Shown here: positions 5,968 to 36,109 of the stretch, in pieces
Layout of the letters: each line of letters starts with the position of its first letter
Numbering within the stretch: the first letter of the stretch is position 1
DNA from: Actinoalloteichus hymeniacidonis
Lineage (GTDB): Bacteria; Actinomycetota; Actinomycetes; Mycobacteriales; Pseudonocardiaceae
DNA length: 64,000 nucleotides
Direction: 5' to 3'
Assembly (NCBI RefSeq): GCF_014203365.1
Contig: NZ_JACHIS010000001.1
Location: 4,650,001 to 4,714,000, forward strand
Made by a program: the position numbers and the translations under genes
The notes under the pieces: model-generated
What the model was told of the DNA's origin: nothing
The model's database searches: none
What the model saw: only the letters and a program-made list of their open reading frames with translations

Positions 5968-7644
5968 TCAGTCGCGGGTCAGTTTGCGCTTGGTGACCCG
6001 GTGCGGACGCGCCGCGTCGGCTCCCAGACGCTCGACCTTGTTCTTCTCGTATCCCTCGAAGTTTCCTTCGAACCAGTACCAGTTTGCCGGGTTTTCGTCA
6101 GTTCCCTCCCACGCGAGGATGTGGGTGGCCACCCGGTCGAGGAACCAGCGATCGTGGGAGATCACGACGGCGCAGCCGGGGAACTGCTCCAGCGCGTTCT
6201 CCAGGGAGCTGAGAGTCTCGACGTCGAGGTCGTTGGTCGGTTCGTCGAGCAGGATCAGGTTTCCACCCTGCTTGAGCGTGAGTGCGAGGTTCAACCGGTT
6301 GCGCTCGCCACCGGATAGGACACCCGCAGGCTTCTGCTGATCGGGCCCCTTGAAGCCGAAGGCTCCGATGTAGGCGCGAGAGGGCATCTCGACGTTGCCG
6401 ACATGCATGTAGTCGAGTCCGTCGGAGACCACCTCCCATACGTTCTTCTCCGGGTCGATGCCGCCCCGGTTCTGGTCGACGTAGGACAGCTTCACGGTTT
6501 CGCCGATGCGCACGACACCGTCGTCGGCCTTCTCGAGCCCGACGATCGTCTTGAACAGCGTCGTCTTTCCGACGCCGTTGGGACCGACGACGCCGACGAT
6601 CCCGTTTCGAGGCAGGTCGAAGGAGAGTCCGTCGATCAAGACCCGATCGTCGAAGCCCTTCTTCAGCCCGTTGATCTCGACGACGACATTGCCCAGCCGC
6701 GGGCCCGGCGGGATCTGGATCTCCTCGAAGTCGAGCTTCCTGGTCTTGTCGGCTTCGGCGGCCATCTCCTCGTACCGAGCCAACCGGGAGCGAGACTTGG
6801 TCTGTCGTGCCTTGGCGTTGGACCGCACCCACGCGAGTTCGTCACGCAGCCGCTTCTGCAGCTTCTGGTCCCGCTTACCCGCGACGGCCAACCGCTCGGC
6901 CTTCTGCTCGAGGTAGGTCGAGTAGTTGCCCTCGTAGACGAAGGTGCGGCCCCGGTCGAGCTCGAGGATCCACGCCGCGACGTTGTCGAGGAAGTACCTA
7001 TCGTGCGTCACGGCGAGAACGGCGCCCGAGTAGTTCGCCAGGTGCTGTTCGAGCCACAGCACGCTCTCGGCGTCGAGGTGGTTGGTCGGCTCGTCGAGGA
7101 GCAACAGGTCGGGTTGGGAGAGCAACAGCTTGCACAGGGCGACCCGGCGGCGTTCACCACCGGAGAGGACCTTGACGTCGGCGTCCGGCGGCGGGCACCG
7201 CAGCGCGTCCATCGCCTGTTCCAGCTGCGAATCGAGGTCCCAGGCGTCTGCGTCGTCGAGTTCCTCCTGGAGGGCGCCCATCTCCTCCATCAACTCGTCG
7301 GAGTAGTCCGTGGCGAGCTGTGCCGCGATCGCGTTGAAGCGGTCGAGCTTCGTCTTGATCTCGCCCACGCCCTCCTCGACATTGCCGAGTACGGTCTTGT
7401 CCTCGTTGAGCGGCGGTTCCTGCTGCAGGATGCCGACCGTGAACCCGGGCGTCAGGTAGGCCTCGCCGTTGTTGGGCTGGTCGAGTCCCGCCATGATCTT
7501 CAGGACACTGGACTTACCGGCGCCGTTGGGACCGACGACGCCGATCTTGGCTCCGGGGTAGAACTGGATGGTCGCATCGTCGAGGATGACCTTGTCCCCG
7601 TGCGCCTTGCGGACCTTTTTCATGGTGTAGATGAACTCGGCCAT
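5968..7644 (-). CDS. ettA: Energy-dependent translational throttle protein EttA (ABC-F ATPase)
   Basis: A 558-aa ABC-F protein, the usual EttA length. It is soluble and binds the ribosomal E site; in the family it gates entry into the elongation cycle according to the ATP/ADP ratio. It has two ABC cassettes. The first has Walker A GPNGAGKSS (about residue 39) and signature LSGGERRRVALCKLLL; the second has GPNGVGKTT (about 355) and LSGGERNRLNLALTL. Each is followed by LLLDEPTN and a histidine switch (AVTHDRYF, VISHDRWF). The region between the cassettes carries the arm/linker segment (LAWVRSNAKARQTKSRSRL) typical of EttA. There are no transmembrane segments, which excludes a transporter. It is the first gene of a likely operon with the long TPR protein immediately downstream. 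Confidence 0.97.
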   Translation of the reverse strand: MAEFIYTMKKVRKAHGDKVILDDATIQFYPGAKIGVVGPNGAGKSSVLKIMAGLDQPNNGEAYLTPGFTVGILQQEPPLNEDKTVLGNVEEGVGEIKTKLDRFNAIAAQLATDYSDELMEEMGALQEELDDADAWDLDSQLEQAMDALRCPPPDADVKVLSGGERRRVALCKLLLSQPDLLLLDEPTNHLDAESVLWLEQHLANYSGAVLAVTHDRYFLDNVAAWILELDRGRTFVYEGNYSTYLEQKAERLAVAGKRDQKLQKRLRDELAWVRSNAKARQTKSRSRLARYEEMAAEADKTRKLDFEEIQIPPGPRLGNVVVEINGLKKGFDDRVLIDGLSFDLPRNGIVGVVGPNGVGKTTLFKTIVGLEKADDGVVRIGETVKLSYVDQNRGGIDPEKNVWEVVSDGLDYMHVGNVEMPSRAYIGAFGFKGPDQQKPAGVLSGGERNRLNLALTLKQGGNLILLDEPTNDLDVETLSSLENALEQFPGCAVVISHDRWFLDRVATHILAWEGTDENPANWYWFEGNFEGYEKNKVERLGADAARPHRVTKRKLTRD

Positions 7645-7809
7645 GCCGGCGATCGTAGAGCGACGCCGAGAGGCGAGATACCTCGGCAGTCACTCACCGG
7701 CATCCGCCGCCCGCCCGCCGGGCTCGCCGCGCCGGCAGGGAGCCGCGCCACCGGATCACCAGACCGGTGGGCACGCTCGACGAGTGGATCATTCGGTCTG
7801 ACGGAAAGC

Positions 7810-7844
7810 CAGGCTGGGAGCGGTCGGGGTCCGCCCCCAGCCTG
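7810..7844 (-). terminator. Hairpin terminator after the Ssb paralogue
   Basis: A 14-bp inverted repeat (CAGGCTGGGAGCGG against CCGCCCCCAGCCTG, one mismatch) with a 7-nt loop begins 5 nt after the ssb stop codon. No U-tract is needed for GC-rich actinomycete terminators. Confidence 0.65.
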
Positions 7845-7848
7845 ACGC

Positions 7849-8331
7849 TCAAGGGACGGCCACCAGATTTACGGCGGGCGCCGGAGTCGAACCGCCATAC
7901 TCGGTGTCGGTGCGCTCGCCGAGATCACCGACAAGGTCGCCGCCACCCGTCGGCGCCCGGGCGAGATCGGACCGACTCGGCCGCTCCAGGCTCGCACGGC
8001 ATCGGGCGAGGTCCGGGCCGATCGCCGAGGCGGTCAACTCGGTGCGCCGAAGCCGCTGACCACCGCTGTCGAAATCGCGGCTGCGTAGCCTGCCGTGCAC
8101 GATCACCGGATCGCCGCGCCGCAGCAGCGCCAACACGCGTTGGGCGAGCAGCCGGAAGCAGCGAACTATCACGAACAGTCGGTCGCCGGTCACCCACTGT
8201 CCGTTCCGGCGGTCGTAACGTCGTTCGATGCTGCCCAGCCGAAAGGTCGTCGTCGGAGTTCCCTCGGCACTGCGGCGGAACCGCAGCTCGCTGATCACCA
8301 CCCCGGTGATCGTGGTGCTTGTCTCGTTCAT
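7849..8331 (-). CDS. ssb: Single-stranded DNA-binding protein, short paralogue
   Basis: A 160-aa Ssb-type OB-fold protein. The first roughly 105 residues follow the family: VISELRFRRSAEGTPTTTFR, WVTGDRLFVIVRCFRLLAQR and GDPVIVHGRLRSRDF are recognisable beta strands of the fold. The C-terminal roughly 55 residues are Arg/Ala/Gly-rich. They lack the acidic DDDIPF-like tip that housekeeping Ssb uses to recruit partners. It therefore looks like the secondary Ssb that actinomycetes keep near ettA, perhaps linked to competence, sporulation or repair rather than general replication (inference). The start ATG at 8331 opens directly into the OB fold. It is a single-gene unit with its own terminator. 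Confidence 0.88.
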   Translation of the reverse strand: MNETSTTITGVVISELRFRRSAEGTPTTTFRLGSIERRYDRRNGQWVTGDRLFVIVRCFRLLAQRVLALLRRGDPVIVHGRLRSRDFDSGGQRLRRTELTASAIGPDLARCRASLERPSRSDLARAPTGGGDLVGDLGERTDTEYGGSTPAPAVNLVAVP

Positions 8332-26628: not shown

Positions 26629-27654
26629 ATGGCTTCGGCGTCCGTACCGCTGTCCGTACTCGATCTCGCTCCGATCGGCGCCGGTTCGACGGCGGCCGAT
26701 GCGTTACGCGGCAGCGTCCGGCTGGCTCGGGAGGCCGAGCAGCTCGGTTATGACCGCTATTGGTTCGCCGAGCATCATGATGTCGCCAGCGTTGCCAGCT
26801 GCTCCCCCTCGGTACTGGTCGCCGCCGTCGCCGCGGTCACCGAGCGGATCCGCGTGGGTTCCGGCGGTGTGATGCTGCCCAATCACCAGCCATTGGTGGT
26901 CGCCGAACAATTCGGCACCCTCGAAGCGCTGCATCCGCAACGGATCGATCTGGGGGTGGGCCGGGCCCCCGCCGCCGATCAGGCGGTCGCGGCGGCGTTG
27001 CGCTGCACCGATGCGGCCGAGTTCCCCGGGCAGCTCGGTGAGCTGGTCCGCTTCTTCGGTGCGCCCCAGCAGAACCAGGGGGCAGGTACCCCGGTGTCGG
27101 CCATTCCCGCCGTCGGACACCGACCGGAGTTGTGGCTGCTCGGGGTCGGTCCCCGCAGCGCCCAGCTGGCCGGGATGCTCGGGCTGTCCTTCGCCTACGC
27201 GCACCACATCGCTCCGGAGAACGTCGGCTCGACATTGGCGGCATACCGATCGGCGTTCCGCCCCAGTGGGCTGTCCTCCGTCCCGCACACGATGATCGCG
27301 GTGGGCGCGGTGTGCGCGGAATCGGATGCCCAGGCGCAACGACTGGCCGCACCTGCCGCGCTGTTGTACGTCCGGCTCCGCACCGGCGACCGGCATCGAC
27401 CGCTGCCCTCGATCAGCGAGGCGGCCGAGTACTCCTACACCGACCAGGAACGCGCGCTGGTGGCCAAACAGACTGCGGGCCGGTTCGTCGGTACTCCCGA
27501 GGCCGTTCGGGCCGGTATCGATCGGGTCGTCGCCGAATCGGGCGCCGACGAGGTGATGGTCACGACGCAGGTCGCCGGCTTCGAGGACCGCCGTCGGTCC
27601 TACGCGTTGCTCGCCGAGGCCTACGCGCTGGACCGGGCCGCCGTCGCGGTGTGA
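26629..27654 (+). CDS. LLM class flavin-dependent oxidoreductase (MsnO8-like group)
   Basis: A 341-aa luciferase-like protein. The N-terminus SVLDLAPIGAGSTAADALRG, then YDRYWFAEHHDVASVASCSP, VGSGGVMLPNHQPLVVAEQF and RIDLGVGRAPAAD are hallmarks of the single-component-like MsnO8/LLM subgroup. It probably uses FMNH2; the substrate is unknown. AAAGGGA precedes the ATG. It is monocistronic and converges on the lasso-cluster ABC permease. Confidence 0.92.
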   Translation: MASASVPLSVLDLAPIGAGSTAADALRGSVRLAREAEQLGYDRYWFAEHHDVASVASCSPSVLVAAVAAVTERIRVGSGGVMLPNHQPLVVAEQFGTLEALHPQRIDLGVGRAPAADQAVAAALRCTDAAEFPGQLGELVRFFGAPQQNQGAGTPVSAIPAVGHRPELWLLGVGPRSAQLAGMLGLSFAYAHHIAPENVGSTLAAYRSAFRPSGLSSVPHTMIAVGAVCAESDAQAQRLAAPAALLYVRLRTGDRHRPLPSISEAAEYSYTDQERALVAKQTAGRFVGTPEAVRAGIDRVVAESGADEVMVTTQVAGFEDRRRSYALLAEAYALDRAAVAV

Positions 27655-27693: not shown

Positions 27694-28557
27694 CTAGATC
27701 GGGCGGCGGAATGCTCGGACGGCGAACACCCCGGCCACGCCACCGACCAGCAGGCTCATCCCGATGGCGGTGATCACCGCAGCGCCCACCGGCTGGCCGA
27801 GCACCAGCGCGCGGGCCGCGTCGATGCCGTAGGACATCGGGTTGACCTCGGCGACGGCCCGCAGCCAGCCGGGCAGGCCCGCCAGGGGCATGAAGGCGGT
27901 GGAGCAGAACATCAGCGGGAACATCAGCAGGGTCGCGGCGCCCTGCATCAACTCGGCCTCGCGGATCCTGCAGGCCGCCGCGATGAAGATCCAACCGAGG
28001 CCGGTGCCGACGATCAGGGCCAACGCCCAGGCTGCGAGCGTCCCGGTCACCCCACCCGGCGGGCGGAAACCGAGCAGGGCCGTGGCCAACACCAGGATCA
28101 GCAGTAACTGGATGGCACTGCGCACCAGATCGGCGAAGCTGCGCGCCAGCAGGATCGAACCGGGCCAGACCGGTAGGCAGCGCAGCCGCGCGACGATCCC
28201 CGAGGTCATGTCGCTCGTCAAGGCGAACGCGCTGCTCACCGCAGCCTGCAGGGTGGTGTTGATCAGGATCGCGGGTACCAGGAAGTCGATGTAGGCGGTG
28301 CCCGCCGGAAAGCCGGGAGTCTGCGCGACGCTACCGAAGATCTGGCTGAAGACCACCAGCATGAGCAAGGGGGCCAACAGGTTGGTCAGGATCAACCTCG
28401 GATCGCGCAGCACCGCACGCAACGACCGTCCGGTGAGGACGAGCACCTGATCCGGCAGCGTCGTTCCCCGCCGTTCCCGCGCGGCAGGCGGGTCGACGAC
28501 GGCGGCCGTCGCCTCCCGCATCGCCGATCCGACACGTCCCTGCGGGTCCACGGCCAT
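27694..28557 (-). CDS. ABC-2 type exporter permease of the lasso cluster
   Basis: A 287-aa permease with six hydrophobic segments, DrrB/ABC2_membrane type (LVLTGRSLRAVLRDPRLILT at the N-terminus; MFCSTAFMPLAGLPGWLRAV near the C-terminus). It pairs with the ATPase immediately upstream to form an exporter, most likely for the mature lasso peptide and thereby self-immunity. ATG at 28557 has AGGAGG eight bases upstream. It is the last gene of the lasso operon and converges with the LLM gene. Confidence 0.9.
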   Translation of the reverse strand: MAVDPQGRVGSAMREATAAVVDPPAARERRGTTLPDQVLVLTGRSLRAVLRDPRLILTNLLAPLLMLVVFSQIFGSVAQTPGFPAGTAYIDFLVPAILINTTLQAAVSSAFALTSDMTSGIVARLRCLPVWPGSILLARSFADLVRSAIQLLLILVLATALLGFRPPGGVTGTLAAWALALIVGTGLGWIFIAAACRIREAELMQGAATLLMFPLMFCSTAFMPLAGLPGWLRAVAEVNPMSYGIDAARALVLGQPVGAAVITAIGMSLLVGGVAGVFAVRAFRRPI

Positions 28558-28611
28558 CAAGCCGGCCTCCTGTTCTGCGTCGCGCCGACCGTGTCGGTCC
28601 GAGCCGACCCG

Positions 28612-29583
28612 CTAGCGGGCATCGGCAACGGCGTTGTCCATGACGAAGAGATAGACCTCGTCCAGGCCCGGCTCGGTGATCCCGAGCTCGGCCGCCTCGA
28701 TGCCCACCTCGTCCAGCGCACGGACCACCGAGGTGATCTCCCGGGACTGTCCGACCGCGATGGTCAACTCGGTGTCCCGACTATCGGACCGCACCGGTTG
28801 CAGCCCTGCCCGGCGCAGCGCCGGTACGGCCGAGGACACCTCGTCGCGGGCGAGCCGCACGGTGACGGCCCGCCTGCCCACCCGGGCCTTGAGTTCCGTC
28901 GGGGTTCCGGACAGGACGACGCGGCCGCCGGAGAGCAGCGTGATCGAGTCGGCCAGCCGGTCGGCTTCCTCCAGGTGCTGGGTGGTGAGCAGGGCGGTGC
29001 TGCCCTGCCGCACCATCTCCCGCACGGTCTGCCAGAGGTCCAGCCTGCTCGTCGGGTCCATTCCAGTCGTCGGCTCGTCGAGAATGATGACCTCCGGGTG
29101 GCCGACCAGACCGATCGCGAGATCGAGCCTGCGCCGCATCCCGCCCGAGTAGGTCTTGGCCAGCCGGTGGGCCACGGCGGTGAGCCCGAACAACTCCAGG
29201 AGTTCGTCGGCCCGCCGCCGCGCATCGCGGCGCGACGCACCGAGCAGTCTGCCGACCAGTACCAGGTTGTCCCGGCCCGTGATGCGTTCGTCGAGCGCGG
29301 CGAACTGGCCGGTCAGCCCGATCCGGCTACGCACCTGCGAGGCCTGCCGCACCACGTCGTACCCGGCGACCCGGACCGTTCCCGAACTCGGCCGGGCCAG
29401 GGTTCCGACGATGTTGACCAGCGTCGTCTTGCCCGCGCCGTTGTGCCCGAGCAGACCGAGCACCGTCCCTCTCGGCACCGCCACATCGACATCGGTCAGT
29501 GCGGCCACCTCGCCGAACCGCTTCCCGAGGCCGATGGCCTCGATCATCAGGTCCGGCGAGCCGGTTCGCGGGGCGCCGGTCAC
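28612..29583 (-). CDS. ABC exporter ATP-binding protein (DrrA type) of the lasso cluster
   Basis: A 323-aa ATPase with Walker A GLLGHNGAGKTTLVN, Q-loop IGLTGQFAALDE, signature YSGGMRRRLDLAIGL, Walker B VIILDEPTTGMDP and the switch TTQHLEEAD. The C-terminal extension (about residues 235-323) is typical of daunorubicin-resistance-like ATPases. It energises the permease at 27694. The GTG start overlaps the MauE-like gene stop by 4 nt (GTGA), so export is translationally coupled to the biosynthetic operon. This is the D function of actinobacterial lasso clusters. Confidence 0.93.
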   Translation of the reverse strand: MTGAPRTGSPDLMIEAIGLGKRFGEVAALTDVDVAVPRGTVLGLLGHNGAGKTTLVNIVGTLARPSSGTVRVAGYDVVRQASQVRSRIGLTGQFAALDERITGRDNLVLVGRLLGASRRDARRRADELLELFGLTAVAHRLAKTYSGGMRRRLDLAIGLVGHPEVIILDEPTTGMDPTSRLDLWQTVREMVRQGSTALLTTQHLEEADRLADSITLLSGGRVVLSGTPTELKARVGRRAVTVRLARDEVSSAVPALRRAGLQPVRSDSRDTELTIAVGQSREITSVVRALDEVGIEAAELGITEPGLDEVYLFVMDNAVADAR

Positions 29584-30122
29584 GCCTCGACCTGCGGAGC
29601 CAGCCGACCGAGCACCACGCGTACCAGCGCGTCGTAATAGCGAATGAAGAACGCCGCACCCGCCAGACCGACGAGCGCCGCCACCGCGGCGTAGCCGAGG
29701 TCCCCGATCGGTTCACCCGGGCTCAAGACGAGTCCGATCACGGCGACAGCAATGATCAACAGATTGCGCAGGATCATCGCGCTGGTCATCACCGAGCCAC
29801 GGCCGAAGCAGCGGCACTCGACCAGCACACCCGCCTGAATGGCCCTGGCCACCACGCCGATGAACAACACCAGCAGCCCGATCGCCAGGGTGAACCCCCA
29901 ACCGGTGGTGCCAGGCAACACCAGCAGGGCCACCGTCGCCGCCTCGCCGAGGACGATGAACGCGGCGATGCCCGTCACCACGGGTTCGGGGAATCTCGTC
30001 AGCTGCCGCACCGTCGCCGCGAACTGCCGGAAGGCCGTCGCACCCGCGATCTTGCCGATGAATGCGACGCCGAAGACGACGGCGATCAGGAATCGATCCG
30101 CCAGCAGCACGTAACTCGTCAT
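29580..30122 (-). CDS. MauE/DoxX-like membrane protein with a CxC motif
   Basis: A 180-aa protein with about four to five membrane helices. The N-terminal helix LLADRFLIAVVFGVAFIGK, then TRFPEPVVTGIAAFIVLGEA and a CRCFG motif (Cys103, Cys105) match the MauE family. In methylamine-utilisation loci MauE works with the thioredoxin-like MauD to form disulfides in an exported protein. Here it sits between B2 and the exporter of a lasso peptide whose core has two cysteines. A role in making or protecting that disulfide, or in transport, is my inference. ATG at 30122 is 40 nt after the B2 stop. Confidence 0.85.
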   Translation of the reverse strand: MTSYVLLADRFLIAVVFGVAFIGKIAGATAFRQFAATVRQLTRFPEPVVTGIAAFIVLGEAATVALLVLPGTTGWGFTLAIGLLVLFIGVVARAIQAGVLVECRCFGRGSVMTSAMILRNLLIIAVAVIGLVLSPGEPIGDLGYAAVAALVGLAGAAFFIRYYDALVRVVLGRLAPQVEA

Positions 30123-30162: not shown

Positions 30163-30576
30163 TCAGCGACAACGCACGGCCAGCATGGTCCGATAGCCTG
30201 CGACGTCGTCGCGTTCACCGATCGGAACGCCGTCGACCTCGACCCAGGCATGGGCGCGGAACGGCTCGATGCAGACACCGGTGCACCAGTCCGCCCAACG
30301 ACCGCCGAGCCGGGCCAGCAGCACCGTGGCGACCGACCGTTGCAGACAGCCCTGGCCCGCACAGCGCACGCTCACCGCCACCACCGCATTCCTGGCCATC
30401 GTGATCTGCCGGGCGCTGGCGGGTCGGGCACCACGTCGCAACACTTCGAGGACCCGTCGGAGCCTGCGGGGTGAGAGGCGGATCAACAGCCAGGACGCCG
30501 CCACAGCGACCCGGGCGGCTGCTCGACGTCGCATGCCGACGTCGACCGATGGTTCGAGCATCACCGGCATCGTCAT
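30163..30576 (-). CDS. Lasso peptide biosynthesis B2 protein (leader peptidase)
   Basis: A 137-aa transglutaminase-like cysteine protease (Transglut_core3), usual B2 length. The catalytic Cys77 is in GQGCLQRSVATVLLARLGG, and His109 with Asp115 in FRAHAWVEVDG. In the pathway it cuts the leader from the precursor after B1 delivers it, immediately before cyclisation. The ATG overlaps the B1 stop by 4 nt. The order C-B1-B2 is the standard split-B arrangement of actinobacteria. Confidence 0.95.
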   Translation of the reverse strand: MTMPVMLEPSVDVGMRRRAAARVAVAASWLLIRLSPRRLRRVLEVLRRGARPASARQITMARNAVVAVSVRCAGQGCLQRSVATVLLARLGGRWADWCTGVCIEPFRAHAWVEVDGVPIGERDDVAGYRTMLAVRCR

Positions 30577-30830
30577 CGGGTGACCACCTTCGCAGCACGC
30601 AACGCCTCGATGATGGCTTCGACATCCGATGCCACTCGATCCGCGGCGGCGGGATGCCGCTCGCTCAACGTCTCGACGATCTCGGCGACCTGGGCGCCCG
30701 CCAACAGTCGACGCAACACCATCGCCCCGGTCGCGTTGAGCTGCCAGTAGCGGCCGCCTTTCTCGTCCAGCAGCACCATCGAGTCGCCGACGTCGGTCAG
30801 CGACACGTCCGGCGCGAGAGTGAAGGTCAT
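30573..30830 (-). CDS. Lasso peptide biosynthesis B1 protein (PqqD-like leader-binding RRE)
   Basis: An 85-aa PqqD-like RiPP recognition element. LAPDVSLTDVGDSMVLLDEK and GGRYWQLNATGAMVLRRLLA are the beta-hairpin and helix that hold the leader peptide in this family. It would bind the YxxPxLxxxGxxxxxT leader motif of the precursor at 33495. The ATG at 30830 overlaps the cyclase stop by 4 nt. A long upstream in-frame extension on the same strand is only a shadow of the cyclase gene. Confidence 0.95.
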   Translation of the reverse strand: MTFTLAPDVSLTDVGDSMVLLDEKGGRYWQLNATGAMVLRRLLAGAQVAEIVETLSERHPAAADRVASDVEAIIEALRAAKVVTR

Positions 30831-32653
30831 CGTGCTCCTCCTGTCAGGACAGCGGTGGGCGCGAACGCGGCCACCGACCGCAGCCACACCTCGCAGGCCA
30901 AGGTCGCGACCACCAGACTCAACCCTGCGGACGAGGTGTGTTGACCAAGTAGCGTCGTGCGGAACCGGTCGGCGTCGACGAGGCCGCGCTGGGCCAGGAG
31001 CATGTCGTCGCAGAGTTCGGCCAGTTCTCCTCGGCAGGACCGCAGCCCGGCGTACACATCGGCGCTGTACTCGGATTTGGTGCCGCGCCCCAGTACCTCG
31101 GTGGGCACCGTGCCCCGCATCGACTCCACCAGCACCGGCTTGTACCGGTGCGGCGAGGCGGAATCGGCGAAGCGGATCGATAGCGCCGCCTCGACCACCT
31201 GGTCGTCGACGAAGGGCGCCTGCCAGTCGACGCCGTGCCGCGCGGTGAGCCTGCCGACCCGGCGAATCGACTCGCCGCACTTGCGGATGTCCTGGATGGT
31301 GGCGTGTTGCGCGCGAATCGGGCTCAGCGGCTCGGGGGTCTTCGCGGCGGCATCGGCCAGTAGCTCCCGGACCGAGTCGACGCCTGTCCGAGTCACCCAC
31401 GGCGGGGTGCGGAACTGGCCCCACCACCCGAAGTTCGGCGTCCGATTGACCCCCCGGACCGAGTCGGTCAGGGTCGCTGCGGAACCGGCGAGCCAGCCGG
31501 GGAAGCTCTGGTCGGCCGCGATCCCACGCAGGGTGTCGGGCAGGGCCCACCGATAGATCGAGCGGAATCCGCGCAGGTATTTGATGGCTGTCCATGGTTG
31601 GCTGCGCAGCAGGGCGTGCAGCTGCAGTGGAGTAGGGAAGAACAGCTCGTCGCCGCCGTGCCCGGTCAGGTGCATCGTGGAGCCGAGTTCGGCCAGCCGC
31701 CCGGCCTGGAACGCGAGGCGTTCGCGGGTCCGGATCCAGGCGAAGGGCGCCTCGATGTCGGGATCGCCGGCCAGCAGGCCCGCGAAGTTCATCGGGATGC
31801 CCTGGCGTTCGAGCACGATGTGCGCGGCGTTGGGAATCGAGGCGGCGGCGCGCTGGGCCCAGTTCTGGTCCTCGTCGTCCACATTCGTCGCCTGCCAACG
31901 GGTGGTGACGAATCGATCGACCTGTCCGGCGGCGAGGAAGGCGAGGCTGGTGGAGTCCATTCCGCCGGAGAGATCGGTGCTCAACGGCCGTTCGGTCGCG
32001 ACGCGGGCGGCAACCGCGTCGTGCAAGGCGGCGCGCACCCGCTCGGCGCCCTCGGTGAGCGGCACCTCGGGAGCCGGGGGTCGCCACCAGCGCACCTCTC
32101 GGCCGGAGCCGTCCCGATCCAGCTCGAGTCGGTGCCCTGCGGACAGCGCTTCGACCCGGCGCCATGGGTTGTAGTCGCTCAGCGGCCAGGGTGCATAGGG
32201 CGAGATCAGCTGCAGGGCGAGGAATTCCTCGTTGAGGCAGGCCCCGGACAGCGCCGCGAGGCTCTGCGGCCGGTCGGCGGCCACCACCACACCCGCGATC
32301 CTGGTGTGGAAGATCTGCCGTGCCGTCGACAGAGTGCCCAGCGCCCCGACCCGGCCGTTCATCGAGGCGACCAGGTGATAACTGCCTGGCAGCGCGCTGC
32401 GGATGCGATCCAGTTCGCCGAGGTCGCGGATCCGTCCCAGCCGGGCGGCGAGGTCCTCGGCCGTAGTCGCGGCGATTCCCAGGGCCACGATTCGGTGCCT
32501 GCCCGCCGAGGCCGCGACGATCTCGCCCGGCGACCAGCGTCCGACGATCCACGGCCTGCCCGACGGGTGCTCGACCACCGTTGTTCCGGCTCCGCCGATC
32601 GATTCCGCGACGGAGGTGCCCTGTGGACAGTCCGGCAGGATCACAAACTCCAC
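30827..32653 (-). CDS. Lasso peptide isopeptide-bond-forming cyclase (asparagine synthetase-like C protein)
   Basis: A 608-aa AsnB-like enzyme. It adenylates the ring-closing acidic side chain (Glu8 of the predicted core) with ATP and joins it to the Gly1 amine. The PP-loop is TDLSGGMDSTSLAFLAA (residues about 226-242), and later segments such as STMHLTGHGGDELFF and VDWQAPFVDDQVVEAALSIR match lasso cyclases. The N-terminal glutaminase-like domain lacks a catalytic Cys at position 2, as in lasso C proteins. It starts at GTG 32653 with GGGAG five bases upstream. It lies 55 nt downstream of the flavin reductase and overlaps B1. Confidence 0.95.
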   Translation of the reverse strand: MEFVILPDCPQGTSVAESIGGAGTTVVEHPSGRPWIVGRWSPGEIVAASAGRHRIVALGIAATTAEDLAARLGRIRDLGELDRIRSALPGSYHLVASMNGRVGALGTLSTARQIFHTRIAGVVVAADRPQSLAALSGACLNEEFLALQLISPYAPWPLSDYNPWRRVEALSAGHRLELDRDGSGREVRWWRPPAPEVPLTEGAERVRAALHDAVAARVATERPLSTDLSGGMDSTSLAFLAAGQVDRFVTTRWQATNVDDEDQNWAQRAAASIPNAAHIVLERQGIPMNFAGLLAGDPDIEAPFAWIRTRERLAFQAGRLAELGSTMHLTGHGGDELFFPTPLQLHALLRSQPWTAIKYLRGFRSIYRWALPDTLRGIAADQSFPGWLAGSAATLTDSVRGVNRTPNFGWWGQFRTPPWVTRTGVDSVRELLADAAAKTPEPLSPIRAQHATIQDIRKCGESIRRVGRLTARHGVDWQAPFVDDQVVEAALSIRFADSASPHRYKPVLVESMRGTVPTEVLGRGTKSEYSADVYAGLRSCRGELAELCDDMLLAQRGLVDADRFRTTLLGQHTSSAGLSLVVATLACEVWLRSVAAFAPTAVLTGGAR

Positions 32654-32708: not shown

Positions 32709-33299
32709 TCAGCCTGCGGGCCAGCCCGCGTACCGCCGCCGCCCGTACATCAGCGGACTGCGGATCTCCGCGTAGTGCCGGATGTGGGTGACCTCGCCGA
32801 AGACCACCCGGTGATCGCCGACGAGTTTGCTGTCGACGACCCGGCATCGCGCCACGGCGTGCACGTCGTCGAACAACACCGGGACTCCCCAGGAAGGCTC
32901 GATCCGCCAACGCACCCGATCGAAACGGTCGGGTGCTCCGGAGCCGAACAGCTCAGCGACGGGTTGCGCCGCCTCATGCAGCAGGTTCACCGCGAAGACC
33001 CGGCGGCGTCGGATCGCCGCCAGAGTCGGACTACCCGCGCGCAGACAGGCCAACAGCGTCGGCGGGCCCAGGCTCACGCTGCACAGCGCGGAACAGGTCA
33101 TGCCCATCGGAGCCTGGCCGCGACCGAGGGTGCTGATCACCGTGACCCCGGTCGGGAATCCGGCCATCAGCAGCCGAAACCGCACATCGTCGGCCGCGTC
33201 CTGCGGCTCTGGGCCGTCGAGATCGGTGCCCCGTTCGGGCTGGACGTCCGAGCTGTCCCGATCGGTCTCGATCTCGGTGGCGACATCGTTGGTGACCAC
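32709..33299 (-). CDS. Flavin reductase family protein inside the lasso cluster
   Basis: A 196-aa FMN-binding split-barrel protein (flavin_reduct family). The family pattern starts at RFRLLMAGFPTGVTVISTLG and MGMTCSALCSVSLGPPTLLA, with VFAVNLLHEAAQPVAELFG and the C-terminal VVFGEVTHIRHY. Such proteins supply reduced flavin to a monooxygenase or act as oxidoreductases. No monooxygenase is in the cluster. I place the start at GTG 33299 (ACGGAG upstream); a frame extension to 33446 has no ribosome site. It lies between the precursor and cyclase genes, so it is transcribed with them. Its role in lasso maturation is unknown. Confidence 0.85.
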   Translation of the reverse strand: MVTNDVATEIETDRDSSDVQPERGTDLDGPEPQDAADDVRFRLLMAGFPTGVTVISTLGRGQAPMGMTCSALCSVSLGPPTLLACLRAGSPTLAAIRRRRVFAVNLLHEAAQPVAELFGSGAPDRFDRVRWRIEPSWGVPVLFDDVHAVARCRVVDSKLVGDHRVVFGEVTHIRHYAEIRSPLMYGRRRYAGWPAG

Positions 33300-33419
33300 G
33301 GTGACTCCGTTCCACGTCGAGGAAGCGCCGTGTTCTGAGACTCGGTCGATCGTCGCCCTGTCGATGGGCACGAGTCGGCCCAGCCGCGCGGACCTGCGGA
33401 CTTCGGTGGTTACCCGGCA

Positions 33420-33459
33420 CGGCCGCACCGAGGCGCGGGGACACACATCGGCACGGCCG
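33420..33459 (-). promoter_or_regulatory. Stem-loop between precursor and downstream lasso genes
   Basis: In the minus-strand transcript CGGCCGUGCCG pairs with CGGUGCGGCCG (11 bp, two G-U) around an 18-nt loop, 36 nt after the precursor stop. It could be a partial terminator or 3' stabiliser that gives more precursor than enzyme mRNA. Confidence 0.5.
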
Positions 33460-33494
33460 TACTCACGCGGTCATTCGGTGCTTATTCGCCCGAA

Positions 33495-33623
33495 TCAGCA
33501 CAACATGACGCAGGTCCAGTCGGCTTCGAAGCCCCAGCCCGGGCGGCCGAGCGTCACCTCGTCGAAGACACCGACCTCTTCCAGTGCGGGGGGTTCGTAC
33601 GCCACCACGGACTCACCATTCAT
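33495..33623 (-). CDS. Lasso peptide precursor, LP2006-like (class IV)
   Basis: A 42-aa precursor. The 25-aa leader contains YEPPALEEVGVFDEVT, a perfect YxxPxLxxxGxxxxxT recognition motif with Thr at -2. The predicted 17-aa core is GRPGWGFEADWTCVMLC. Gly1 and Glu8 can form the 8-residue macrolactam ring, and Cys13 and Cys17 can form a tail disulfide. From memory, LP2006 of Nocardiopsis (class IV lasso peptide) is GRPNWGFENDWSCVRVC; 12 of 17 positions are identical, including ring and cysteine residues. GGAGG lies eight bases before the ATG. It is the first gene of the biosynthetic operon: precursor, flavin reductase, C, B1, B2, MauE-like, ABC ATPase, permease. Confidence 0.95.
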   Translation of the reverse strand: MNGESVVAYEPPALEEVGVFDEVTLGRPGWGFEADWTCVMLC

Positions 33624-33750
33624 GATGATCTCCTCCAGACAGGATCGATACACTCGACATCCCGCGAGATTCGCCAGACCACATCACTCCGGGATGCGAT
33701 ATCAGGCTAAATACTCTCGCTTGTGTCGCCCTTGTCTCCGTCTTGCCCGG

Positions 33751-34569
33751 CTATGAACGGTGCCCTGATCTGCTGGTCACCCGCCAGTAGTCGCCGCCGA
33801 TCACGAAGTCGTTCTGTTGCAACACCGGATCGTTGCGCAATATCGAGGTCTCCAACCAGGCCAATCGGTCAGGAGGCTCCAAACCGAAATCCCGGTCCAT
33901 GGATTCGCGAAGTCGCCGGAATACCTCGAGTGCGTCCGCGGTGCGACCCGCCCGGTGCAGCAAGATCATCAACTGCGCGGCGAATCTCGGCCTGCCGGGA
34001 AACCTGGTCAGTAGTTCGGTCAGCTTGGCTACCAACTCCAGCCAATGACCCAGTCCGATTTCGAGATCGATCTGCGCGGTGAGGATATCGAGGCGCCGTT
34101 CCTCCAGGGGAACGCACAATTCGAGGCGGGCCCGCTCGTTGGTGATGTCGGACAGCGGCTCCCCGTGCCAGAGGTCGAGCGCCTGCCCGTAGAGCCGCGC
34201 CGCGTCCGGCGCAGACGCCGCCTTGGCCTGTCCTACCAGTGCCTCGAAGCGGTGTGCGTCGATGCATTCCGGTTCCATCGACATCAGGTAGCCGGGGCCG
34301 ACGGTCCGCAGGCTCATCCCCTCGGCCATCGCCTTGCCGCCCGCGATGCCCAGCGCCGACCGGAGTCGCGACACATGGGCATGCAATGAGCCGGTCGCCG
34401 ATCGGGGTAGCGGATCGCCCCACAGCAACTCGAACAGTCGTTCCCGATGGACCGACTCATTGGCGTTCAACAGCAGGACTGCGAGCAGGAGGCGACGTTG
34501 TTGTGGACCGATTTCGCATACTCGGCCCTGCCGCCAGAATCGAACTTCGCCTAACAGCTGGAAATACAT
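33751..34569 (-). CDS. SARP-family transcriptional regulator (OmpR-type HTH plus BTAD)
   Basis: A 272-aa Streptomyces antibiotic regulatory protein-like activator. The N-terminal winged helix reads MYFQLLGEVRFWRQGRVCEI to GSLHAHVSRLRSALGIAGG. The bacterial transcriptional activation domain follows from ECIDAHRFEALVGQAKAA to RAGRTADALEVFRRLRESMD. SARPs bind direct repeats near the -35 of cluster promoters and activate secondary metabolism. It lies 127 bp upstream of the lasso precursor on the same strand, so it is the likely pathway-specific activator. GGAGA precedes the ATG at 34569. Confidence 0.9.
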   Translation of the reverse strand: MYFQLLGEVRFWRQGRVCEIGPQQRRLLLAVLLLNANESVHRERLFELLWGDPLPRSATGSLHAHVSRLRSALGIAGGKAMAEGMSLRTVGPGYLMSMEPECIDAHRFEALVGQAKAASAPDAARLYGQALDLWHGEPLSDITNERARLELCVPLEERRLDILTAQIDLEIGLGHWLELVAKLTELLTRFPGRPRFAAQLMILLHRAGRTADALEVFRRLRESMDRDFGLEPPDRLAWLETSILRNDPVLQQNDFVIGGDYWRVTSRSGHRS

Positions 34570-34714
34570 CGCTCTCCGATCGCGGCGCCGCACTTCCTAC
34601 CGGGCCCGATCGGCCGGCGGCAGCACCCCCATCTGGCCGCGTTCGTCCTCTTCAGGTTCTCTACAAGATGAATGATCACCGTCATGACGCTCCCCGCTTG
34701 ATGAACCTTCACCA

Positions 34715-34986: not shown

Positions 34987-35958
34987 TCAGGCGAGCATGT
35001 CCACCACGTATTCGGTGGCCGCCGCCAAGAGCGCATTGTCGTACCGGGCATCGCGTTCGTCCTTGCTGGACATGATGGCGATGGCGATCGGTTCGGCATC
35101 CGGCGGCCAGACGATGCCGATGTCGTTGGCGGTGCCGTAATCGCCGGTCCCCGTCTTGTCGGCCACCGTCCAGCCTGCGGGGAGCCCGGCCCGGATCCGC
35201 TGCTCGCCTGCCAGGGTGGCGTTGCGCTCCAACAGGTCGCGCAGGAAGTCCCGCTTCTCGGCGGGCAGGGCGGCGCCGAGCACGATGTCGTGATAGTCGG
35301 TGCCGATGGCACGCGGTGAGGTCGTGTCGCGAGGATCGCCCGGGGTGGCCTCGACGATCGTCGGTTCGTAGCGATCCATCCGAGTCACCGTGTCACCGAG
35401 GCTGCGGGTATAGGCCGTCAGTTCGGCCGGTCCGCCGATGTCGCGGAGTAAGAGGTTGCCCGCCGTTCCGTCGCTGAATCGGACTGCGGCGTCGCACAGC
35501 GCGCCGATCGTCATCCCGGTGGCCACGTGCTGCTCGGTGATGGCGGAGCTGGCCATGAGATCGGCCTCGGTATAGGTGACGACCGTGTCGAGATAGGACA
35601 TCGGATGCCGGTGCAGCACGGCTGCGGCGGCCAATCCCTTGAACGCGGAGCAGAAGGCGAAGCGCTCGTCCGCGCGGTGGGAGACCGTGTTGCCGGTGCC
35701 GACCGCGATGGCATAGACACCGAGCCGCGCATCGAACTCCCGCTCGAGTTCGAGGAGCCGATCGTGCCGCCTGCTCACCTCGGTCGGAGCGGGGGCGCTG
35801 CTCGGAGTCGAAGGGTCGGGCTCGCCCGGCGGGTCTCCCGGGCTCGAGGATGTCACGGCACCGATCAGCTCGTCGCCCCCACAGCCCGCGAGCGAGAACA
35901 GCGCGGCCGCACCGAGCACCGCGCGGCGGGTCACCGCCCCTACCGGTTTCGTCGTCAT
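34987..35958 (-). CDS. Class A beta-lactamase, lipoprotein
   Basis: A 323-aa serine beta-lactamase, exported as a lipoprotein. A twin-arginine region TRRAVLGAAALFSLAGC ends in a lipobox with Cys26, followed by a Pro/Ser-rich linker. Active-site motifs are S70-x-x-K in FCSAFKGLAAAAV, the SDG triad in RFSDGTAGNLLL (as in M. tuberculosis BlaC rather than SDN), and KTG in VADKTGTGDYG. The omega loop reads DRYEPTIVEATPGD: Glu166 is present, but the usual Asn170 is Val. GGAGG five bases before the ATG at 35958 fixes the start. It is probably monocistronic and hydrolyses penicillins or cephalosporins at the cell surface. Confidence 0.93.
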   Translation of the reverse strand: MTTKPVGAVTRRAVLGAAALFSLAGCGGDELIGAVTSSSPGDPPGEPDPSTPSSAPAPTEVSRRHDRLLELEREFDARLGVYAIAVGTGNTVSHRADERFAFCSAFKGLAAAAVLHRHPMSYLDTVVTYTEADLMASSAITEQHVATGMTIGALCDAAVRFSDGTAGNLLLRDIGGPAELTAYTRSLGDTVTRMDRYEPTIVEATPGDPRDTTSPRAIGTDYHDIVLGAALPAEKRDFLRDLLERNATLAGEQRIRAGLPAGWTVADKTGTGDYGTANDIGIVWPPDAEPIAIAIMSSKDERDARYDNALLAAATEYVVDMLA

Positions 35959-36109
35959 CCTGGCCTCCGAGGCGCCGTTGGAACGGATTACCACGGCGCA
36001 GAACCCAGCCGTAGCCCGCTGCCGGGCGGGATCCGTATCGCCAAGAGCAATCCTGGTCTACCTGGTGATCCCGCCCGACAGCGGTGCGGTGGAACTTCGA
36101 GTTATCCGA

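Follow-up and report, generated by a model that had tools for sequence, protein, structure and literature searches.

What does the open reading frame of 42 amino acids between a SARP regulator gene and a flavin reductase gene of the marine actinomycete Actinoalloteichus hymeniacidonis encode, and which of its neighbours act on the product? In this work, we have analysed this frame in its setting, the window (the whole stretch of 64,000 nucleotides), and compared it with related loci. The first-pass annotation of this DNA had called the frame a new and distinct precursor of an LP2006-like class IV lasso peptide belonging to a very small class; its finding mentions neither the monooxygenase nor the MauE gene of the locus. 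Our results indicate that the window very probably holds a complete cluster for a 17-residue LP2006-type lasso peptide with a disulfide in its tail (class IV), known here from its genes, their conservation and the promoter architecture (Table 1). The part worth following is the conserved monooxygenase.

Table 1. Features of the lasso peptide locus, in window positions
Feature	Position	Strand	Basis and remarks
SARP regulator	33751..34593	minus	BTAD, Trans_reg_C; start probably 34569
Predicted SARP operator, three CAAG repeats, 11-bp period	33720..33748	minus	shuffle scoring, conservation
Precursor gene A, 42 aa and stop	33495..33623	minus	NF033521 above cut-off, conservation, codon-change pattern
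Leader part of gene A	33549-33623	minus	
Core GRPGWGFEADWTCVMLC of gene A	33498-33548	minus	
Strong hairpin, attenuator/terminator-like	33417..33462	minus	46 nt, starts about 30 nt past the A stop codon
Flavin reductase ORF between A and C	32709..33446	minus	PF01613, residues 94-242
C, asparagine-synthase-like macrolactam cyclase	30827..32653	minus	PF00733 above cut-off
B1, PqqD-like leader-binding protein (RRE)	30573..30830	minus	NF033530 90 bits, cut-off 70
B2, transglutaminase-like leader peptidase	30163..30576	minus	NF033537 112.9 bits, cut-off 33
MauE-family membrane protein with ECRCFG motif, candidate thiol oxidant	29580..30122	minus	PF07291 73.6 bits, cut-off 27
ABC exporter ATPase, DrrA type	28612..29583	minus	Pfam and NCBIfam
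ABC exporter permease, DrrB-like	27694..28560	minus	Pfam and NCBIfam; DrrB models under their cut-offs
MsnO8-family luciferase-like monooxygenase, candidate tailoring enzyme	26629..27654	plus	TIGR03558 396.6 bits, cut-off 167

Comparison of loci

At an E value of 0.001 the window precursor matched 8 of 390 genomes of the family, the three Actinoalloteichus genomes included and one match (G225, 6.5e-4) being weak, and a species-wide contig scan with the same query gave 18 loci, seven of which (L013-L019) have a GRPxWGFExDW core. With a model built from 11 precursors, matches were obtained in 32 of 394 class-drawn genomes at 0.001 (27 of the 32 weaker than 1e-7) and, at 1e-6, in 30 of the 341 genomes of the family of G742. 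Genome G859 encodes the exact LP2006 core, at locus L084. Altogether 49 loci were compared (the window, L013-L034 and L084-L109), and two tail cysteines are encoded in 34 of them, a proportion that should not be read as a frequency for lasso clusters in general, because all the loci came by precursor similarity. The neighbourhood is readable in 33 of the 34; in L018 the contig ends. The first evidence for the occurrence of MauE and of the monooxygenase was tblastn, and the profile models used afterwards were built from the 26 MauE loci and the 12 monooxygenase loci, which match them by construction. The MauE tblastn query had some non-MauE residues at its start, which produced a short match of 38 bits in L021, not borne out by the profile.

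The precursor gene and its core

Gene A is read on the minus strand, which the first-pass annotation had left unnamed; its ends, its length, its position between two neighbours that Pfam recognises and the exact fit of its leader to YxxPxLxxxGxxxxxT are all as annotated. From 33623 to 33495 it translates to MNGESVVAYEPPALEEVGVFDEVTL-GRPGWGFEADWTCVMLC (leader-core), and an AGGAG lies a few bases upstream of the ATG. The NCBIfam lasso leader model NF033521 matches the product at 31.2 bits (cut-off 19), and a Pfam search of the product gave no match. The gene was found in all three Actinoalloteichus genomes. Over the 35 codons from Tyr9 to the stop, the window and an A. fjordicus-like genome show 11 synonymous and four non-synonymous codon differences, with 13 of the 19 base changes at third positions. 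By this codon-change pattern gene A is under coding selection, and the pattern, together with conservation, rules out a chance ORF. The plus strand over the same bases translates to an unrelated sequence, and we discarded a plus-strand gene there (32827-33756) as a purely mechanical entry of the ORF list.

The core has two cysteines, Cys13 and Cys17, both in the tail, and the ring is taken to close at Glu8 from the alignment with LP2006. It fits GRPxWGFExDWxCVxxC, a pattern that we compiled in the present analysis from 13 loci; Gly1, Glu8, Cys13 and Cys17 are present in all 13 loci with a GRPxWGFExDW core. The annotated identity with LP2006, 12 of 17 residues, and the five differing positions are correct when set against the core GRPNWGFENDWSCVRVC printed in PMC12427821, and there is good support for an intact lasso cluster with an LP2006-like precursor. 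Distinctness did not survive the comparison: Ala9, Met15 and Leu16 all occur in relatives, the core of Actinomadura nitritigenes (L013) is identical at 15 of 17 positions, and among the 13 loci it is LP2006, with Arg15, that stands alone and not the window core. The very small class is a fair description of characterised peptides only (a 2022 review names LP2006, the felipeptins and pandonodin in class IV), and at the gene level the 34 two-cysteine tails among the gathered loci speak against it.

Biosynthesis, export and the proposed pathway

The order on the minus strand is SARP, A, flavin reductase, C, B1, B2, MauE, ABC ATPase and ABC permease, so that a precursor with a lasso leader has B1, B2 and C beside it. 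The best NCBIfam model for C is NF033561, at 268.7 bits under its cut-off of 300. A motif similar to the ECRCFG of MauE is also found in the MauE sequences of relatives. The reading frames of A, C, B1, B2, MauE and the two exporter genes are uninterrupted in the window, and each of these genes has a match in both sister species. We also considered, and rejected, a further lasso cluster elsewhere in the genome, since the B2 model NF033537 has a single genome-wide match.

We propose that SARP would bind the repeat box upstream of A and switch on the gene, and that the hairpin after A would limit read-through, so that the precursor would outnumber the enzymes. Judging from the gene families, B1 would bind the leader, B2 would cut after Leu25, and C would join the amine of Gly1 to the side chain of Glu8 around the tail. 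The thiols of Cys13 and Cys17 would then form a disulfide, most likely helped by MauE, a step to which we attach moderate confidence, and the DrrAB-like pump would export the peptide and protect the producer. The MsnO8-type monooxygenase may add a further oxidation, with reduced flavin supplied by the flavin reductase, and this last step we consider rather unlikely.

Promoter and hairpin

SARP sites are marked by 11-bp direct repeats upstream of the target gene, and such a promoter feature is present upstream of A, with a predicted role as operator. The CAAG repeats lie in the 127-bp gap between SARP and A, and their equal spacing is kept in both sister species; three of 300 shuffles of the window sequence scored as well. 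All 12 loci with a C-V-M-x-C tail have a SARP homolog, and in 10 of the 12 the 11-bp repeat score was reached by at most 9 of 300 dinucleotide shuffles, a convincing box being absent in L013 and L018 (53 and 50 of 300 shuffles as good). Other periods scored at least as high as 11 bp in four of these loci: the window (9 bp, with an equal score), L013 (13), L018 (12 and 13) and L019 (10). As controls, 10 of the 22 other class IV loci were tried; a SARP homolog is likewise present in the stretch retrieved for three of them (L023, L094 and L095), and a repeat box was found in one of the 10, L095. The SARP of the A. fjordicus-like genome is an ortholog 74% identical to that of the window, and the A. 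fjordicus SARP has been reported to raise the A promoter about 5-fold (PMC5974421). According to the same source, it was not yet possible to recognise a consensus for SARP promoters in silico, above all in Actinoalloteichus, and for this reason the predicted repeat box is a useful proposal, which opens direct testing of the promoter.

The hairpin stands out in folding: a 101-nt stretch gives -52.2 kcal/mol (z -5.0, none of 200 shuffles as low), G-U pairs included, although a repeat finder returned no inverted pair in the A-C gap of the window. Inverted repeats that separate a lasso A gene from the gene after it have been described (PMC5974421).

Just upstream of SARP lies a class A beta-lactamase-like gene (34987-35994, minus strand), for which the 20 kb surrounding A in either sister species gave no match. 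A gene 72% identical to it is located about 3 kb before the precursor in a Pseudonocardia lasso locus (L030).

The monooxygenase and the flavin reductase

Do the two putative redox genes belong to the pathway? We give an even chance to the view that they are unrelated neighbours and that the cluster yields a plain lasso of the LP2006 type, with a single disulfide, as LP2006 itself is listed in PMC12427821. Strong matches to the window monooxygenase (>500 bits) were obtained in 12 of the 49 loci (the window, L013-L019, L031, L032, L086 and L091), and these are the 12 loci with the core GRPxWGFExDWxCVMxC. This recurrence of an MsnO8-type monooxygenase in loci with a C-V-M-x-C tail is new here. 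It argues against unrelated neighbours, the more so as the gene takes two different positions relative to A: in Actinoalloteichus it is located downstream of the exporter and converges with it, and in the other loci it occupies the opposite strand in the gap between SARP and A. No match was found in the 17 kb of L084, the LP2006-core locus, nor in the near relative L085, which agrees with a plain product for LP2006. The edge position and other strand of the Actinoalloteichus gene likewise suit an unrelated neighbour, as do the paralogs, 54-55% identical, that all three Actinoalloteichus species keep elsewhere. More widely, paralogs 51-56% identical to the window monooxygenase are found elsewhere in 13 of 16 genomes tested, among them three (G742, G137 and G055) with no lasso-linked copy. 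The solved structure closest to the enzyme by sequence is 4us5 (E 5.4e-62).

The flavin reductase weighs on both sides. Its ORF start overlaps the hairpin, and therefore the true start probably lies further in. We rejected it as a conserved cluster gene: the 20 kb surrounding A gave no match in either of the two sister species, whose genomes hold only 32-38% matches elsewhere, and of the loci compared only that of the window's species has a flavin reductase between A and C, as would be expected of a chance neighbour. L017 and L019, for their part, carry a different flavin reductase adjoining the monooxygenase (32-35% identical to that of the window and 74% to each other), which speaks for a functional link. 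A supplier of reduced flavin beside a luciferase-like enzyme would make a natural pair. In an Actinophytocola lasso locus (L028, 18166-18640, minus strand), a flavin reductase 57% identical to that of the window lies about 8 kb from the precursor.

A single origin of the lasso-linked monooxygenase was considered; the tree groups the copies as one with a support of 45/84, and hence does not show it. Either one old association or two recruitments would be compatible with it. Similarly, Met stands between the tail cysteines in 12 of 12 monooxygenase loci versus one of 22 other two-tail-cysteine loci (L100, CAMWNC), and this co-occurrence was not accepted as pointing to Met15 as the oxidation site, since shared descent of the core could explain it.

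A dedicated MsnO8-type monooxygenase might oxidise the LP2006-like lassos that have a C-V-M-x-C tail, the candidate site being Met15 or a Trp, which would make them an oxygenated class IV subclass; to this speculative proposal we assign even less weight than to the oxidation step in the window. If true, it could help to explain why the A. fjordicus peptide A127-LP was not detected, provided that the search covered the unoxidised mass only or that the cloned piece lacked the enzyme. The predicted product of the window has a monoisotopic mass of 1906.795 ([M+2H]2+ 954.405), and of 1922.790 with one oxygen; since the monooxygenase is conserved and the product may be oxidised, the mass to seek includes +16 Da.

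Predicted formation of the tail disulfide

By profile search, 26 of the 33 readable two-tail-cysteine loci have MauE, seven have a luciferase-like gene right after B2, and none has both. In the other 15 loci neither MauE nor a luciferase-like gene was strongly matched; one of them, L105, gave a 36-bit hit to the MauE model and its precursor has the four cysteines of class I, and two, L030 and L090, have two cysteines with one in the presumed ring. A cyclase tree of 48 rows places the MauE loci in a single group (SH-aLRT 87), next to which stand the FilE loci, and two label changes are needed. The link between MauE and the cysteines therefore counts as about one evolutionary event, and is thus not in itself proof of disulfide formation by MauE. 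For the maturation of methylamine dehydrogenase it has been speculated that MauE forms disulfides (PMC7794033), and according to the 2022 review the class IV disulfide may also form spontaneously, without an enzyme.

Could luciferase-like enzymes form the disulfide instead, the MsnO8 type here and the FilE type in felipeptin clusters? FilE, which the same review describes as a flavin-dependent oxidoreductase, has been speculated to do so, and the seven two-tail-cysteine loci that have no MauE are those with a luciferase-like gene after B2. They include both loci with felipeptin A1/A2 cores, L033 (luciferase-like gene at 7028-8071, minus strand) and L034, and such a gene is also seen in L020, L021, L026 and L089; in felipeptin-type loci it is probably FilE. 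We nevertheless find this explanation improbable: LP2006 has a disulfide, yet the 17-kb LP2006-core locus gave no such gene, the type in the window is found together with MauE, and the types are distant from each other, with 26-29% identity where the match spans most of the length. The L033 protein belongs to PF00296 and falls under the MsnO8-family cut-off (119.6 versus 167 bits). Thus two luciferase-like subfamilies appear to be linked to tail-disulfide lasso clusters. Felipeptin clusters resemble the window in their two tail cysteines, related leader and cyclase and nearby SARP homolog, and differ from it in that they have two precursors and a luciferase-like gene after B2, no MauE was found in them, and their exporter ATPase is no more than 26-30% similar. 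The window, with MauE after B2 and the MsnO8-type gene elsewhere, is not of the felipeptin type, and help from MauE remains our preferred reading.

In Streptomyces huasconensis (L025, 12716-13842), the FilE-like gene is split into two overlapping frames, from a broken gene or a sequencing error.

Relation to published clusters and peptides

How new is this precursor? The exact core GRPGWGFEADWTCVMLC was not found in the literature main texts that were searched, and an identical entry in supplements or RiPP databases is possible; the sole match to core pieces was PMC5974421, through WGFEADW. The annotated novelty holds to that extent for the peptide, and not for the cluster. Table 5 of PMC5168871 (2016) gives cluster 6 of A. 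hymeniacidonis HPA 177 as "Lassopeptide", with a dash where presence in another bacterium would be entered, and Table 5 of PMC5676828 (2017) records the lasso cluster of A. fjordicus in A. hymeniacidonis and A. hoggarensis as well, but as absent in two further species. The A. fjordicus precursor, A127-LP, was printed in 2018 and classed as type III, a naming that also put LP2006 in type III (PMC5974421). The precursor of the A. fjordicus-like genome equals the published A127-LP from TES onward, and the published Met falls on a GTG. This orthologous cluster shares with the window the neighbourhood, the upstream SARP, the transporter genes and 14 of 17 core residues; it has Ser, Ser and Val at core positions 4, 12 and 16 where the window has Gly, Thr and Leu, and no flavin reductase was found within 20 kb around A in the matching genome. 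The window precursor thus adds a new sequence to a known family; a sister cluster has been published, and its product went undetected.

The antibiotic LP2006 of Nocardiopsis alba, a class IV peptide (PMC12427821), shares with the window core its length, besides the residues given above, and L084 has the same A-C-B1-B2-MauE-ABC-ABC order. They differ in Arg15 versus Met15 and in the 17 kb of L084, which gave no match to SARP or to the flavin reductase, nor, as noted, to the monooxygenase.

A127-LP was undetected in S. coelicolor or S. lividans despite confirmed transcription (PMC5974421), as a silent or decayed cluster with no product would have it, and this we regard as very improbable for the window, given open biosynthesis and exporter genes matched in both sisters, coding selection on gene A and conserved promoter repeats. 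The complete cluster that we favour is a fully sequenced type-strain locus in which to probe the role of MauE in the disulfide, the addition of oxygen by the monooxygenase and the non-detection of the A. fjordicus peptide.

Some relatives depart from the window core. The two-tail-cysteine precursors of L093, L095 and L099 (one genus) and of L025 and L026 (Streptomyces) have cores starting with Lys, Arg or Asp and not Gly, if the leader is assumed to end one residue after the conserved Thr, as in TL-RQGTWGWDDYDQCWILC. Actinomadura kijaniata (L018, 9694-10410) encodes three different LP2006-like precursors in tandem, among them one that carries Asp8 and another whose tail is of the form Cys-x-x-Cys.
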